Positions 9,614 through 32,019 of a stretch of 64,000 nucleotides of DNA are shown piece after piece; the first letter of the stretch is position 1; every line of letters begins with the position of its first letter. The notes below the pieces were generated by a model. It was not told where the DNA came from, did no database searches, and saw nothing but the letters and a program-made list of their open reading frames with translations. Made by a program: the position numbers and the translations under genes. This stretch comes from Yinghuangia seranimata (GTDB lineage: Bacteria > Actinomycetota > Actinomycetes > Streptomycetales > Streptomycetaceae): assembly GCF_029953285.1 (NCBI RefSeq), contig NZ_JASAOI010000077.1, positions 1 to 64,000 of the forward strand. The letters are read 5' to 3'.

Positions 9614-9642
9614 CCTCGGGCGGGAGTTCACCCCGCCCGAGG
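9614..9642 (-). terminator. Terminator of the aro operon
   Basis: A perfect 11-bp stem (CCTCGGGCGGG and complement) with a 7-nt loop, about 40 bp past the aroQ stop and before the cbtBA promoter. Confidence 0.85.
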
Positions 9643-9652
9643 GCCGATTGCC

Positions 9653-9683
9653 TTGCCCGTCAGCCCGTCAGCCCGTCAGCCCG

Positions 9684-9692
<9 letters not shown>
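9653..9692 (-). repeat. 8-bp tandem repeat carrying the aroQ stop codon
   Basis: Read on the minus strand, the aroQ stop TGA is the first of four TGAs spaced exactly 8 bp apart in the unit TGACGGGC (TGA at fwd 9684-9686, 9676-9678, 9668-9670, 9660-9662). Because 8 is not a multiple of three, the array supplies a stop in every frame. Confidence 0.95.
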
Positions 9693-11790
<2,098 letters not shown>

Positions 11791-15604: not shown

Positions 15605-16294
15605 TCACCACCCCGCATAGGCGGACATCAGCTGGTCGCCGTACAGGACGCCGCCGAGGGCGCCCAGCAGCATCCAGGGCCCGAACGGCAGAGCGGTGTC
15701 CAGACGCGCGCGGCGCGTGAGCAGCAGGACGGCGGCGGCGAGGCCCGCGCCGGCGAAGGACAGGAACGCGCCCGCGAACAGGTTGTCCCACCCCAGCCAC
15801 GACAGGTGCAGGCCGAGCACGGCGGCCAGCTTCACGTCGCCCAGGCCGAGGGCACCGCACCGGAACACCGCGAGCGCGAGGTGGTACCCGGCCAGCAGCA
15901 GCGCGCCGGCGAGGGCCCGGGCATAGGCCGTGGGATCGCCGACGGCGAGCGACTCCATGCCGAGCAGCGCGAGACCGGCCAGGAGCATCGCGCCGGTGAC
16001 CGCGTCGGGCAGCCGCAACGTACGGAGGTCGACGAGCGCGAGGACCACACCGCACGCCGCGAGGACCAGGAAGGCCAGCAGGTCGAGGCCGGGGCCGAGG
16101 CGCCAGGCCAACGACGCGAACACGGCCGCGGTCAGGCCCGCGAGGCTCAGCGTTCCCGGCGGACGGGTACGCACGAGCGCGGCGGGTGGGGCGGGGACGG
16201 GCGCGGCCGCGACCAACCGCTCGACGGGCAGCCGCAGGACCAGTCCCGCGGCGAACCCGAGGGCTGCGCAGACGAGAGGAGATCCAATGAACAC
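15605..16294 (-). CDS. Prepilin peptidase (A24 family)
   Basis: A 229-aa polytopic aspartic peptidase that trims type IV-like prepilins. The two catalytic aspartates are in ALVDLRTLRLPD and GALGLGDVKLAA (the GxGD motif). It has about seven helices. The N-terminal methylase domain found in proteobacterial PilD is absent, as in TadV/CpaA-type and actinobacterial enzymes. The start is GTG at 16294. No pilin or assembly gene lies in the window, so its substrate is elsewhere. A similar gene sits between aroC and aroE in related genomes. Confidence 0.88.
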   Translation of the reverse strand: MFIGSPLVCAALGFAAGLVLRLPVERLVAAAPVPAPPAALVRTRPPGTLSLAGLTAAVFASLAWRLGPGLDLLAFLVLAACGVVLALVDLRTLRLPDAVTGAMLLAGLALLGMESLAVGDPTAYARALAGALLLAGYHLALAVFRCGALGLGDVKLAAVLGLHLSWLGWDNLFAGAFLSFAGAGLAAAVLLLTRRARLDTALPFGPWMLLGALGGVLYGDQLMSAYAGW

Positions 16295-16395
16295 ACGGCA
16301 GAGACTACGGTGGATTACCGAACAGACACGCTGAGCGATCCACAGGCGCGCCGTTAAGTCCGATGATCCGACCGGGCGTTCGACGGTACGGCCGG

Positions 16396-16911
16396 CTAGC
16401 AGGTCGGCGAACCGTCCCCGGGCGTGGGGCCCGTGGGCGGCGGCACCACAAAGCCGAGGGCTGGCGCAGCGGGGTTATCCACCGCCGGCACGGCGAAGCC
16501 CAGTCCAGGCGAGGCGAGTTGCCCACCGGGCGGCTGAACCGGCGGAGGCGGAACGGGCCGCGCGACGGGCGGAGGCGGTACGGGCCGCCCCACGGGCCGA
16601 GGCGGCACAGGCGGAGCGGCAGCCACGGCGTACCCCGCCCGCGATTGCCCGACCGGCGCCGAAACCTGCCGACGAAGGCTTGCGCGGATCGCAGCCACGA
16701 GAAGCGCGATCAGCAGCAGCACGACGATGAAGAGCAGGAACTCCTCCCACGACCAGGACCCCCCGCCCCCCGACGAGTTCCCGACATGCCCGCCGCCACC
16801 GATGCCCCGCCCACCGGTCGTCCCGTGCCCGCCACCCGACCCGTGCCCGCCACCACTGCCGTGCCCGCCACCCGACCCGTGGCCCCCACCGCTACTCGAC
16901 ACCAGCGTCAC
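16396..16911 (-). CDS. Gly/His-rich single-pass membrane protein with Pro-rich tail
   Basis: A 171-aa protein, not matched to a named family. The N-terminus has four tandem GGGHGS-type repeats and more glycine, then one transmembrane helix (EEFLLFIVVLLLIALLVAAI), a basic juxtamembrane RASLRR, and a Pro-rich C-terminal half with repeated RPVPPPPV units. I chose the GTG at 16911, with a GGGGGGA ribosome site; upstream frames run into the tandem array. It may be co-transcribed with the prepilin peptidase 101 bp downstream. The repetitive code raises the chance that it varies in length between strains. Confidence 0.6.
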   Translation of the reverse strand: MTLVSSSGGGHGSGGGHGSGGGHGSGGGHGTTGGRGIGGGGHVGNSSGGGGSWSWEEFLLFIVVLLLIALLVAAIRASLRRQVSAPVGQSRAGYAVAAAPPVPPRPVGRPVPPPPVARPVPPPPVQPPGGQLASPGLGFAVPAVDNPAAPALGFVVPPPTGPTPGDGSPTC

Positions 16912-16959
16912 CCCGTCCCCCCAACCGGTCAGCCGTTCACCGACGACCCTACCGGCGCG

Positions 16960-18105
16960 ACTCCCCAACCACGCCCGGGAGTTCCCTCGCGGACGAGGAA
17001 TCCGCCCGACAGCAAACGCAACGCCCAACGCACGCCCCACCGCCACCGCGCGGAGGTGGTCCAACGCACGACCGAGGTCGGGGGCGCGGGAGGAGTTGGG
17101 TGAGTGACGAACCGCCGCGCAGGCGAGAAGGCCGACGGGCCAGGGCCGACAACGACGCGGCGCCGGCGCCGGCGCGTGACCGTCGTCAGGGCGCGGGAGG
17201 AGATGGGTGGGTGGGGTGGGGGCGCCTGAGGGCGTGACCGAGGCCGAGTCCCGATGCCCCGCCGCACACGTCCGCACGGTCGCGAACCTGCCGGACTCCC
17301 CGAGCACGCCGAGGAGTTGCCGTGCGCGCGGGCTTCCCGAACGAGCAAACGCACGATCAACGCACGCCCCACCGCGATCGCGCGGAGGTCCAACGCACGG
17401 CCGAGGTCGGGGGCACGGGAGGAGGTGGGTGGGCGACGAACCGCCGCGCAGGCGAGAAGGCCGACGAGCCAGGGCCGACAAGGACGCGGCGCCGGACGCT
17501 GGCGTGCGACCCACGTCAGGGTGTGGCAGGAGTTGGGTGGTGATGGGGGCTCCTGGCGGCGAGACCGAGGCCGAGTCCCGGTGCCCCGCCGCACGGTCGC
17601 GAACCTGCCGGACTCCCTGAGCACGCCGAGGAGTTGCCGTGCGCGTGGGCTTCCCGAACGAGCAAACGCACGATCAACGCACGGCCCACCGCGATCGCGC
17701 GGAGGTCCGACGCACGACCGAGGTCAGGGGCGCGGGAGGAGGTGGGTGGGCGACGAACCGCCGCGCAGGCGAGAGGGCCGACGAGCCAGGGCCGACAAGG
17801 ACGCGGCACCGGCGCCGGCGCGTGACCGCCGTCAGGGCGCGGGAGGAGGTGGGTGGGTGGGTGGGTGGGGTGGGAGCGCCTGAGGGCGTGACCGAGGCCG
17901 AGTCCCGGTGCCCCGCCGCACGCGTCCGCACGGTCGCGAACCTGCCGGACTCCCCGAGCACGCCGAGGAGTTGCCGTGCGCGCGGGCTTCCCGGACGAAC
18001 AAACGCACGATCAACGCACGGCCCACCGCGATCGCGCGCGGAGGTCCGACGCATGGCCGAGGCCGAGTCCCGTTGCCGCGCCGCGCGTCCGCATGGCCGC
18101 GAGCC
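16960..18105. repeat. Tandem array of about 330-bp units, 3.5 copies
   Basis: Four direct copies, ending or starting at GTCGCGAACCTGCCGGACTC: A about 16960-17279 (most diverged on its left side), B 17280-17596, C 17597-17933, D 17934-18105 (truncated). Each full copy holds, in order, a GAGGAGTTGCCGTGCGCG block, AAACGCACGATCAACGCACG, the palindrome CGCGATCGCG (changed to CGCCACCGCG in copy A), a GGGAGGAG(G/T)TGGGTG block, GAACCGCCGCGCAGGCGAGA, and GACCGAGGCCGAGTCCCG. Copies differ by indels that are not multiples of three, so no reading frame is preserved through the array. No transposase or known RNA motif was recognised. Confidence 0.88.
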
Positions 18106-18594
18106 GTCTACGCGCGAGTGCCCTGTGGCCAGCCCGATCCCCGACTGGGCAAGAGGCCAGGGTCGTGTGCGGGGGCTGCCGGGGAGGCGGGGTTGGACGG
18201 GTCGGAAACGCGGGCAGAGCGCGAGGGCGAGGGTGCGCGGCGCCGTGTCCGTCGTGACACGTCGGCGCGCCGCGCGTCAGCTCAGCGGGCTCGGGGATCC
18301 GGCTTTCGGGCGAGCCCTCAGCCCGTCGTCATCTCCGCAGCGCTGGGCGTGGGCGAAGCGGACCGCAGAGTGCGAGGGCGCGCGTGACCGGAGTCGTGTG
18401 CGTCGTGCCGCGCGTGTGAGCGCGGTCGCGCCCGGCAAGCGGGCCGGCTCAGCCTGCCGTCGCATCGCTGCCCTGGGCCCGGGAACCGCGTTGGCCCCGC
18501 TCGGCCGTTGGGGCGGAGCGGGGCCGACGAATGCTGCTCGAGCGTTCCGGAGGGGCGATCCCGCGTCGGCATCGCACCTCGCGTCGGGGGCGGG
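18106..18594. other. Intergenic, no gene seen
   Basis: This lies between the tandem array and the 3' end of aroE. All frames are open because of composition; none carries recognisable domains or a good ribosome site. Confidence 0.5.
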
Positions 18595-19428
18595 TCAGCG
18601 GTTGGCCAGGGCTGCTTCGCCGGCGGATCGCATGGCGGCCAGGGGGCCTGGGTGGCCGGTCATGAGTTCTACCTGGAGGACGGCTTGGTGGACGAGGAGG
18701 TCCAGGCCGCCGACTACTGTGGCGCCGGTTTTGGTCCAGGTGGCGGCCAGGGGGGTGGGCCAGGGGTCGTAGACGACGTCGAAGAGGACGCCGGGGGTGG
18801 CCGGGACCCGGTCGGCCAGGTGGTCGTTGGCGCCCTTCGGGGTCGTGGCGATGACGAGGGGGTAGTCGAGGGCCTTGTGGGCGTCTTCCCACGGCCGGAC
18901 CTGGATCTCGACGCCGAGGCGTTCGCCGGCCTCGAACATCTCGTGGGCGCGCAGCGCGCCGCGGACGTAGGCGCGGACCGGGCCGTCGCACACGCCGCGC
19001 AGGGCCGCCATCGCCGAGGTGGCGGTGGCGCCCGCGCCGAGGATGGCCGCGGACTCGACGCGCGTGACGCCGCGTTCGCGCAGCGCGGCGGCCAGGCCCG
19101 GCACGTCCGTGTTGTCGCCGAGGCGCCGCCCCTCGGGGTCGAGGACGACGGTGTTGACCGCCTCGACCTCCGTGGCGGTGACCGACACCTCGTCGAGCAG
19201 CGGGAGGATCGCCCGCTTGAGGGGCATGGTCAGGGACAGTCCGGCCCACGACGCGTCGAGGCCCGCCACGAAGCCGGGCAAGCCGGCCTCGTCGACCTCG
19301 AACGCGTCGTACCGCCAGCCGTCGAGCCCGAGCGCCTCGTACGCGGCCCGGTGCAGCACCGGGGACAACGAGTGGGCGATCGGCGAGCCGAGTACCGCCG
19401 CGCGGTGGTTTTCCATGGGTGCCGTCAC
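18595..19428 (-). CDS. aroE: Shikimate dehydrogenase
   Basis: A 277-aa NADP-dependent enzyme reducing 3-dehydroshikimate. Substrate-site motifs are AAVLGSPIAHSLSPVLHRAAY, SLTMPLKR (catalytic Lys) and NTVV...GDNTD. The nucleotide loop is AAILGAGATATSA. The family C-terminal block GLDLLVHQAVLQ is present. I prefer the GTG at 19428, which overlaps the mltG stop (GTGA); the ATG at 19416 four codons later is possible. It is not physically joined to the other aro genes but lies in the same core region. Confidence 0.95.
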   Translation of the reverse strand: MTAPMENHRAAVLGSPIAHSLSPVLHRAAYEALGLDGWRYDAFEVDEAGLPGFVAGLDASWAGLSLTMPLKRAILPLLDEVSVTATEVEAVNTVVLDPEGRRLGDNTDVPGLAAALRERGVTRVESAAILGAGATATSAMAALRGVCDGPVRAYVRGALRAHEMFEAGERLGVEIQVRPWEDAHKALDYPLVIATTPKGANDHLADRVPATPGVLFDVVYDPWPTPLAATWTKTGATVVGGLDLLVHQAVLQVELMTGHPGPLAAMRSAGEAALANR

Positions 19429-24839: not shown

Positions 24840-25068
24840 GTTCGATGCGCTCCTTCAGCGGCCGAAATGCAACGGCTGTCGACAAAGTGAGAGGGCGTCA
24901 CCTGGGACACAGCCGCACGGGCGACCCCGGGACCCCGACCCTACCGCGCCGTAGCGGGAGAGTCGCCTGACACTACCGGCCATGCGGGGTGGTGTGCACG
25001 GACCGGGCGTGACCTTGTCGGGAGAGCGTCGTTATGGGTACTGAGGGTTGCCCTGTGGCACAGGGCAC
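24840..25068. other. Upstream region of the DUF948-alaS operon
   Basis: It must hold the leftward promoter of the DUF948-DUF6167-alaS-ruvX-mltG-aroE operon. I did not find a clear -10/-35 pair, nor a T-box leader. Confidence 0.4.
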
Positions 25069-25102
25069 GAGGGCCCTGCTCCGCAGTCGGAGCAGGGCCC
25101 TC
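25069..25102. terminator. Strong terminator hairpin downstream of rpsD
   Basis: A perfect 15-bp stem (GAGGGCCCTGCTCCG and complement) with a CAGT loop, 91 bp past the rpsD stop. On the plus strand it is followed by ACCTTTTC, so it could work in both directions, but only rpsD reads towards it. Confidence 0.9.
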
Positions 25103-25150
25103 ACCTTTTCGGTACATATTCGGCCGCGCGGCACGTGCTGCGCGTCGCGC

Positions 25151-25200
25151 GGGTCGGCGCGGGTCAGCGCGGGTCAGCGCGGGTCAGCGCGGGTCAGCGC
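25151..25200 (-). repeat. 10-bp tandem repeat carrying the rpsD stop codon
   Basis: On the minus strand the last rpsD codons are followed by four perfect copies of GCGCTGACCC and one variant (GCGCCGACCC). The stop TGA is repeated every 10 bp (fwd 25194-25196, 25184-25186, 25174-25176, 25164-25166), giving a stop in each frame. The last Arg codon is part of the first unit. Confidence 0.95.
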
Positions 25201-25802
25201 GAGTAGTACTCGACGACGAGCTGCTCGTCGCAGACCACCGGGATCTCGCGGCGCAGCGGCAGCCGGTCGAGGCGGGCGGCGAGCGCGCCGAGGTTGACCT
25301 CGATGTACTTGGGCGTGGTCTCGGCCGCGAAGCCGCCGGCGCGGACGACCTCGAACAGCGCCTTGCCGCGGCTGCGCTCGCGCACCGTGACGACGTCCTC
25401 GGGGCGCAGCCGGTAGCTGGGGCGGTCGACCTTGCCGCCGTTGACCTCGAAGTGGCCGTGGCCGACCATCTGGCGGGCCTGGTAGACGGTGCGCGCGAAG
25501 CCGGCGCGCAGGACGAACGCGTCGAGGCGGCGCTCGAGGGAGACGACCATCTCCTCGCCGGTCTTGCCCTGGTGCTTGTGGGCGGCGTCGAAGGCGGCGC
25601 GCATCTGGGTCTCGTTGATGTCGTACTGCGCGCGGAGCTTCTGCTTCTCCAGCAGGCGCACCTTGTAGTCCGACGCCTGCTTGCGGCCGCGGCCGTGCTC
25701 GCCCGGCGGGTAGGGGCGGTTCTCGAGGTACTTCTGGGCCTTGGGCGTCAGGGCGATGCCGAGCGCACGGCTGCGCTTGACCTTGGGGCGGGCCTGGTTC
25801 AA
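25194..25802 (-). CDS. rpsD: 30S ribosomal protein S4
   Basis: A 202-aa S4, a primary 16S rRNA-binding protein of the 5' domain. PYPPGEHGRGRKQASDYKVR, LLEKQKLRAQYDINETQ and the S4 RNA-binding domain (LERRLDAFVLRAGFARTVYQ, GHGHFEVNGGKVDRPSYRL) are clear. It lacks cysteines in the N-terminal region, so it is the zinc-free form. The start is TTG at 25802 with GGAGGA five bases upstream; no ATG gives the family N-terminus. Its promoter region is shared with the divergent DUF2470 gene. Confidence 0.97.
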   Translation of the reverse strand: MNQARPKVKRSRALGIALTPKAQKYLENRPYPPGEHGRGRKQASDYKVRLLEKQKLRAQYDINETQMRAAFDAAHKHQGKTGEEMVVSLERRLDAFVLRAGFARTVYQARQMVGHGHFEVNGGKVDRPSYRLRPEDVVTVRERSRGKALFEVVRAGGFAAETTPKYIEVNLGALAARLDRLPLRREIPVVCDEQLVVEYYSR

Positions 25803-31803: not shown

Positions 31804-32019
31804 GGGTGCCTCCTTGTCGCGGACGGCGGACAAGCCGACCGCTTCCACGCTGTCAGAGACGGTGCCGCCGCGCTGCGGGTTTCTCCCTCACACGAGGGCA
31901 ACTCCCGGGTTCGGCGACGGAATCGGCCACGTCGATGACCTGGTGGAACCATCCCGCACGGTGGCTACGGTGGCCGGGCGCCGGCGGCCGCGCCGGATCC
32001 GCGCGCTCCGGGGGGTCCC

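Follow-up and report, generated by a model that had tools for sequence, protein, structure and literature searches.

The rpsD gene for ribosomal protein S4 (202 amino acid residues, with a TTG start as listed; Pfam Ribosomal_S4 and S4) was located from the open reading frame list at 25194..25802 on the minus strand of the window, that is, the whole stretch of 64,000 nucleotides analysed in this study, which belongs to a genome of Yinghuangia (family Streptomycetaceae; 9.80 Mb in 113 contigs; referred to as G000) of high GC content (71.6-73.7% across sampled blocks). The 3' end of rpsD reads TAC TAC TCG CGC TGA on the minus strand, and its stop codon (25194..25196, placed from the list and the sequence) lies inside the first unit of a tandem array of GCGCTGACCC (25151..25200, minus strand), which is composed of four perfect units (25200-25161) and a variant fifth unit, GCGCCGACCC (25160-25151), before it decays. 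The program TRF described this array as 25147-25201, with a period of 10, 5.5 copies, 97% matches and a score of 103. Three extra TGA triplets (25186-25184, 25176-25174 and 25166-25164, within 25164..25186 of the minus strand) follow the rpsD stop, so that TGA stands at 0, +10, +20 and +30, in frames 0, +1, +2 and 0, respectively; in the fifth unit CGA replaces TGA and the stop is thus lost. The preliminary description of this DNA, made from the sequence alone, had reported four perfect decamers repeating the stop at 0, 10, 20 and 30 bp with TGA in all three frames, all of which is confirmed herewith, except that the array was placed as starting within the last Arg codon; the unit begins at the third base of TCG, the Ser codon before it.

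An array of the same layout is present at the end of aroQ (type II dehydroquinase by gene call and Pfam; 9684..10127, minus strand). This 8-bp array of GGCTGACG (9655..9689, minus strand; period 8, 4.4 copies) starts inside the coding end and carries four TGA triplets starting at 9686, 9678, 9670 and 9662, the first being the aroQ stop, and a hairpin is located downstream (about 9616..9640, minus strand). Its unit is unrelated to the 10-bp unit of rpsD, as had been noted. Two longer repeats were also observed in the window: a 33-bp unit (8.3 copies, 98% matches) at 1-275, the very start of the contig, which contains GCGCGCGG and CCGCGCGC and may be the cause of a break in the assembly, and a 317-bp unit (3.2 copies) at 17011-18062, within a 2.3-kb stretch without called gene (16294-18595).

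Hairpins and RNA folding downstream of the arrays

A terminator had been described to follow both arrays. A strong hairpin is indeed present after each, and that of rpsD, with a 15-bp stem, GAGGGCCCTGCTCC...GGAGCAGGGCCCTC (25069..25102, minus strand), is likely to be the terminator of this gene. A scan for terminators composed of a hairpin plus T run found none at rpsD, and the structure is accordingly a hairpin without T run; a second, small hairpin (25050..25066, minus strand) also lies 3' of rpsD. Two other genomes of the genus, G001 and G002, were compared (one genome per species), and in G001 a comparable hairpin, GGGCCCTGCTCC/GGAGCAGGGC, was found downstream of rpsD. Within G000, stems of at least 9 pairs follow 5 of the 11 genes with an array across the stop (see below) and 291 of 993 other genes (P = 0.32), and because of this lack of difference the presence of a terminator is not specific to the stop arrays; a hairpin-specific association was rejected on the same ground.

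The 166-nt 3' region of rpsD folds better than its shuffled sequences (z -5.5), and so does the 3' region of aroQ (z -3.6). Such folding would be in line with a regulatory or binding role of the array, in which the 10-bp period aligns identical sites along the same side of the DNA helix, or the repeat RNA together with the hairpin protects or ends the rpsD transcript. In the centroid structure of the rpsD region, however, the array is unpaired, and much of the fold is supplied by the separate 15-bp hairpin. Nor does the unit recur throughout the genome: a pattern search of G000 for the double unit of GCGCTGACCC detected rpsD as the sole exact site, with one further site when up to 2 mismatches were allowed, and a dispersed binding site is thereby ruled out. 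As the other stop arrays have different units, with periods of 8 to 14, and the relatives carry no array at rpsD, we give a regulatory or binding role hardly any credence. A search of Rfam at gathering thresholds gave nothing at rpsD and a cobalamin riboswitch alone (RF00174; window 9542-9418, minus strand; 32.1 bits, barely above the cut-off of 31.5) near aroQ, upstream of two genes called on the minus strand (9298-9137 and 9117-8344).

Absence of the arrays in related genomes

The rpsD gene of G001 (contig C88, 267,932 bases) is 93% identical to that of the window, and both G001 and G002 share with G000 the stop and the 15 coding bases before it (gagtactactcgcgcTGA). The preliminary description had looked to rpsD 3' ends of related genomes for variation in copy number; between species, we found the array to be absent from G001 and G002, where the DNA 3' of rpsD differs from that of G000. 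The aroQ array is likewise absent from both genomes, and with both window arrays missing in these relatives, they look young as judged from the sequences. In the examined parts of G001 and G002, no orthologue with a comparable 3' end was found for any of the nine remaining stop-array genes of G000 (one weak match of 32%). A repeat across the rpsD stop was detected in 2 of 103 rpsD 3' ends (all collected rpsD loci minus three distant paralogues, L009-L011), a set that includes Y. soli twice (L008 and L039) and reaches distant phyla and that hence does not consist entirely of close or independent genomes. One of the two is G000. The other (L016), from another genus of the family, has a 13-bp unit of different sequence in 2.2 copies, which includes the rpsD stop and is, to judge from this unit, an independent case of a similar sort.

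Tandem arrays in the gene gaps of Yinghuangia

For a census of tandem arrays, we sampled 1.63 of the 9.80 Mb of G000, with 1,416 genes called by our own codon-model script rather than a published caller, and arrays called by an autocorrelation script. Contigs C73, C15 and C52 were picked as matches to a 141-base query holding the rpsD array and C108 via an rpsD paralogue, the remaining contigs being taken by number; samples of 400 kb each from G001, G002 and G075 (another genus of the same family) were used for comparison. The gene gaps of the G000 sample contain 115 arrays of at least 2.5 copies, as against 7, 7 and 13 in three dinucleotide shuffles, and 13 arrays of at least 3 copies with a score of at least 27, as against 0 in each shuffle. 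From the first of these comparisons it is clear that the gap arrays, taken together, are genuine and frequent, and chance is no explanation for them. The number of non-coding arrays per kb is 0.49 in G000, 0.46 in G001, 0.23 in G002 and 0.09 in G075, the density in G000 and G001 being about five times that in G075. NucS is the mismatch-repair nuclease of actinobacteria, and its loss was considered as a cause of the many arrays. This candidate was ruled out since PF01939 (NucS) was detected in 41 of 41 family genomes searched; with all three Yinghuangia genomes included among them, loss of NucS is not the cause of the differences in array density.

Within the gaps, array density is 0.85 per kb between convergent genes, 0.43-0.52 between tandem genes and 0.22 between divergent genes. 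Array coverage stays flat at 2.2-2.5% across 0-100 nt after stops and is 0-1.2% across the 100 nt before starts. None of the 115 gap arrays reaches over a start; an earlier count of a looser class (1.24 Mb) included one such array.

Reading frame and the stop-spanning arrays

Arrays spanning a stop were found at 11 of the 1,416 sampled genes of G000, with units that differ from gene to gene and periods from 8 to 14. Stop-containing arrays thus recur at other genes of the genome, and their absence elsewhere, which the preliminary description had named as the observation that would speak against it, was not what we found; the idea of arrays centred on stops was not supported, the coverage being flat over 100 nt. 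The Pfam scan covered 10 of 12 stop-array proteins, the two outside it being that of G001 and one of 181 aa from C20. The ten G000 genes scanned, of the 11 in that genome, include one ribosomal protein gene and two without match, and among the others are an epimerase, a DUF305 protein, a ketosynthase, a GNAT protein and an Lrp/AsnC regulator. Judged from these Pfam identities, the stop-array genes seem not to form a highly expressed group, for which a test of enrichment had been suggested. Two further cases on contig C73 were observed outside the counted arrays. A 12-bp array at 31854-31936 starts inside the stop of the minus-strand gene 32864-31935, with TGA in the first copy and CGA thereafter, and was left out of the count because it abuts the stop without repeating it. 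At L003 (about 328833-328893), a less exact repeat of about 22 bp, in two copies and with another TGA, comes after the stop.

The presence of TGA in every frame suggests one possible function, namely that arrays with periods other than multiples of three are kept by selection as fail-safe stops, catching read-through and frameshifted ribosomes in a genome where chance stops are rare at high GC. The arrays of rpsD and aroQ do place stops in all three frames, and 7 of the 11 stop arrays have a period not divisible by three; an excess of arrays at stops under the stricter placement model described below also points in this direction. However, 7 of 11 is the two thirds that random periods give. 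The periods of the stop arrays modulo 3 (0/1/2) are distributed as 4/4/3, compared with 33/28/43 for the other gap arrays, and no bias of the stop arrays against multiples of three was found: the period is 9 in three arrays and 12 in another, and these four repeat the stop in a single frame. The period off multiples of three, which had been listed as part of the arrangement shared by rpsD (10) and aroQ (8), is therefore true of these two genes and is no rule for the stop arrays, 4 of the 11 being multiples. That the data are able to show a frame rule is evident from the arrays inside coding sequences, which served as the positive control, the period being a multiple of three in 92 of 101.

The stop triplets themselves led to the same view. 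Within 20 codons after 723 genes, we counted 178 stop triplets in frame, 151 in the +1 frame and 210 in the +2 frame (164, 136 and 191 when array-bearing ends were removed), which indicates no clear in-frame excess. Conservation of TGA was not observed across units or relatives, the fifth rpsD unit carrying CGA and the array being absent in G001 and G002, and among the substitutions between units of the 11 stop arrays, counted by eye, 2 of 6 strike TGA. The loss of TGA in the fifth unit and the lack of conservation of the arrays in relatives both stand against fail-safe selection. The likeness to the fail-safe additional stops treated by Ho and Hurst (2019; PMC6764699) lies in the extra stops after the primary stop; the published bacterial test was, however, negative, the available part of that report stating that bacteria under-use additional stops, more so at higher GC3, and G000 likewise is without clear in-frame enrichment. 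We consider selection for fail-safe stops very unlikely.

Placement of arrays relative to stops

The number of stop arrays was compared with random placement of the arrays that have at least 2.5 copies and lie at least half inside the gap between two called genes. Placement over all gaps predicts 3.0 stop arrays against 11 observed (P = 0.0001), or 2.7 against 9 without the discovery window (P = 0.0016), but this excess arises because arrays in general prefer the gaps after genes. With placement within the same gaps and a stricter model, in which the first unit may include at most period minus 3 coding bases, 11 were observed and 5.7 expected (P = 0.015), or 9 and 5.5 without the window (P = 0.071); for arrays of at least 3 copies the corresponding values are 8 and 3.0 (P = 0.008), and 6 and 2.9 (P = 0.062). 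The excess under this model is inflated, since 2 of the 11 arrays overreach its coding limit, one having the stop in its second unit. When only the arrays that fit the model are counted, 9 stand against 5.2 (P = 0.050), or 7 against 5.1 without the window (P = 0.21), and for at least 3 copies, 7 against 2.8 (P = 0.016), or 5 against 2.7 (P = 0.13). In a wider model that allows the 13-base overhang as seen, the count agrees with expectation, 11 against 10.4 (P = 0.47), or 9 against 10.1 without the window (P = 0.72). The presence of a small excess at stops thus depends on the placement model. Array edges per 1000 positions number 1.19 at -8 to -3, 1.55 at 0 to +5, 0.52-0.69 at +10 to +40 and 1.07 at +40 to +60, and the extra edge density at the stop is weak.

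The preference of arrays for gene ends could reflect an event at the 3' end (termination, head-on replication or breakage) that favours the birth of arrays at gene ends, and at stops beyond other weakly constrained DNA. The first 100 nt after stops and the convergent gaps are rich in arrays and the divergent gaps poor in them, edge density is slightly raised right at the stop, and G000 without the window has stop arrays at 9 of 1,363 genes, compared with 1 of 1,086 in the three other genomes combined (P = 0.05). Against this, a weaker constraint at 3' ends than at promoters and starts accounts for the same gradient, coverage does not peak at the stop, and the wider model of random placement reproduces the count. 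The other genomes also have few stop arrays: in G001 one was found among 359 genes, and there was none among 351 genes of G002 or 376 of G075. We thus regard site-directed birth of the arrays as highly improbable. A broader proposal is that the 3' ends of genes in the Yinghuangia lineage are the target of a directed process, of mutation or of selection, by which arrays starting at or just before stops are built in dozens of genes; simple scaling of 11 per 1,416 sampled genes would give about 65 stop arrays genome-wide. This proposal is considered unlikely.

Proposed origin of the rpsD array

We consider it highly probable that the rpsD array is a young, species-level tandem repeat that replication slippage or a tandem duplication generated over the gene end, with the extra TGA triplets being copies rather than selected backups. 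Slippage as the cause, its seed and the neutrality of the product are inferred from the sequence. The rpsD end of G000 reads CGCGC TGACC CGCGC, a 5-bp direct repeat flanking the stop, and one slip over this CGCGC repeat would give rise to a 10-bp unit with the stop duplicated; further slips would lengthen the array. The array would sit in weakly constrained, non-coding 3' DNA, where gain or loss of copies should leave the S4 protein untouched and any remainder of the period modulo 3 should be tolerated, the extra units being silent for the protein because translation ends at the first stop. As such silence after stops differs from the situation of arrays inside genes or over starts, arrays of this origin may look stop-centred. 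For this reading of the data a stop-centred interpretation is not needed, and a stop-centred function is not supported.

Comparison with known repeats

The rpsD array fits the class of short tandem repeats known as long simple sequence repeats (LSSR) of prokaryotes, with units of 1-11 nt (Mrazek et al. 2007, as described in the available part of PMC4679880), of which those in coding sequences are mostly multiples of three and in which some Actinobacteria are rich. At rpsD a head-to-tail unit of this length is repeated (period 10, 5.5 copies, 97% matches), and arrays longer than statistically expected are represented in the gaps by the 13 against 0 in each of the three shuffles; the units of 10 and 8 bp in G000, longer than chance, and the multiples of three in its coding arrays resemble the LSSR. 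The difference is that the first unit of the rpsD array holds a stop codon, that of a gene for a ribosomal protein.

The TAACTGA heptamer repeats of marine Beggiatoaceae (MacGregor 2015; PMC4679880) are, as far as the available part of that paper tells, present in 169 sets, mostly just upstream of starts, and among the sets in or at coding regions 13 overlap the stop of the upstream gene. They share with the arrays of G000 short direct repeats, stops in all three frames and, in some cases, an overlap with gene ends, but they consist of one fixed, dispersed heptamer, whereas the units in G000 vary by gene and the arrays lie after genes; the same unit at many loci was not found in G000, where the double unit of GCGCTGACCC is at rpsD only. 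Of the published repeats found that carry stops and extend over the ends of genes, these come closest. The MIRU-VNTR of mycobacteria, which according to the available part of PMC2734929 occupy 41 places with a repeat length of about 100 bp, are likewise tandem repeats between genes of an actinobacterium, but differ from the single-locus 10-bp unit of rpsD in being long and dispersed. Among the literature matches listed (titles and openings of abstracts, with few subscription journals), none described arrays formed by slippage over stop codons in Actinobacteria.

The eye-catching pattern of four stops in three frames at the end of a ribosomal protein gene would thus be explained by slippage together with the relaxed constraint after the stop. 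The arrays of this genome also provide a clean control of the reading frame, since multiples of three are kept in the coding arrays and not in the stop-spanning arrays, and the non-coding arrays of Yinghuangia (G000 and G001) may suit strain typing.
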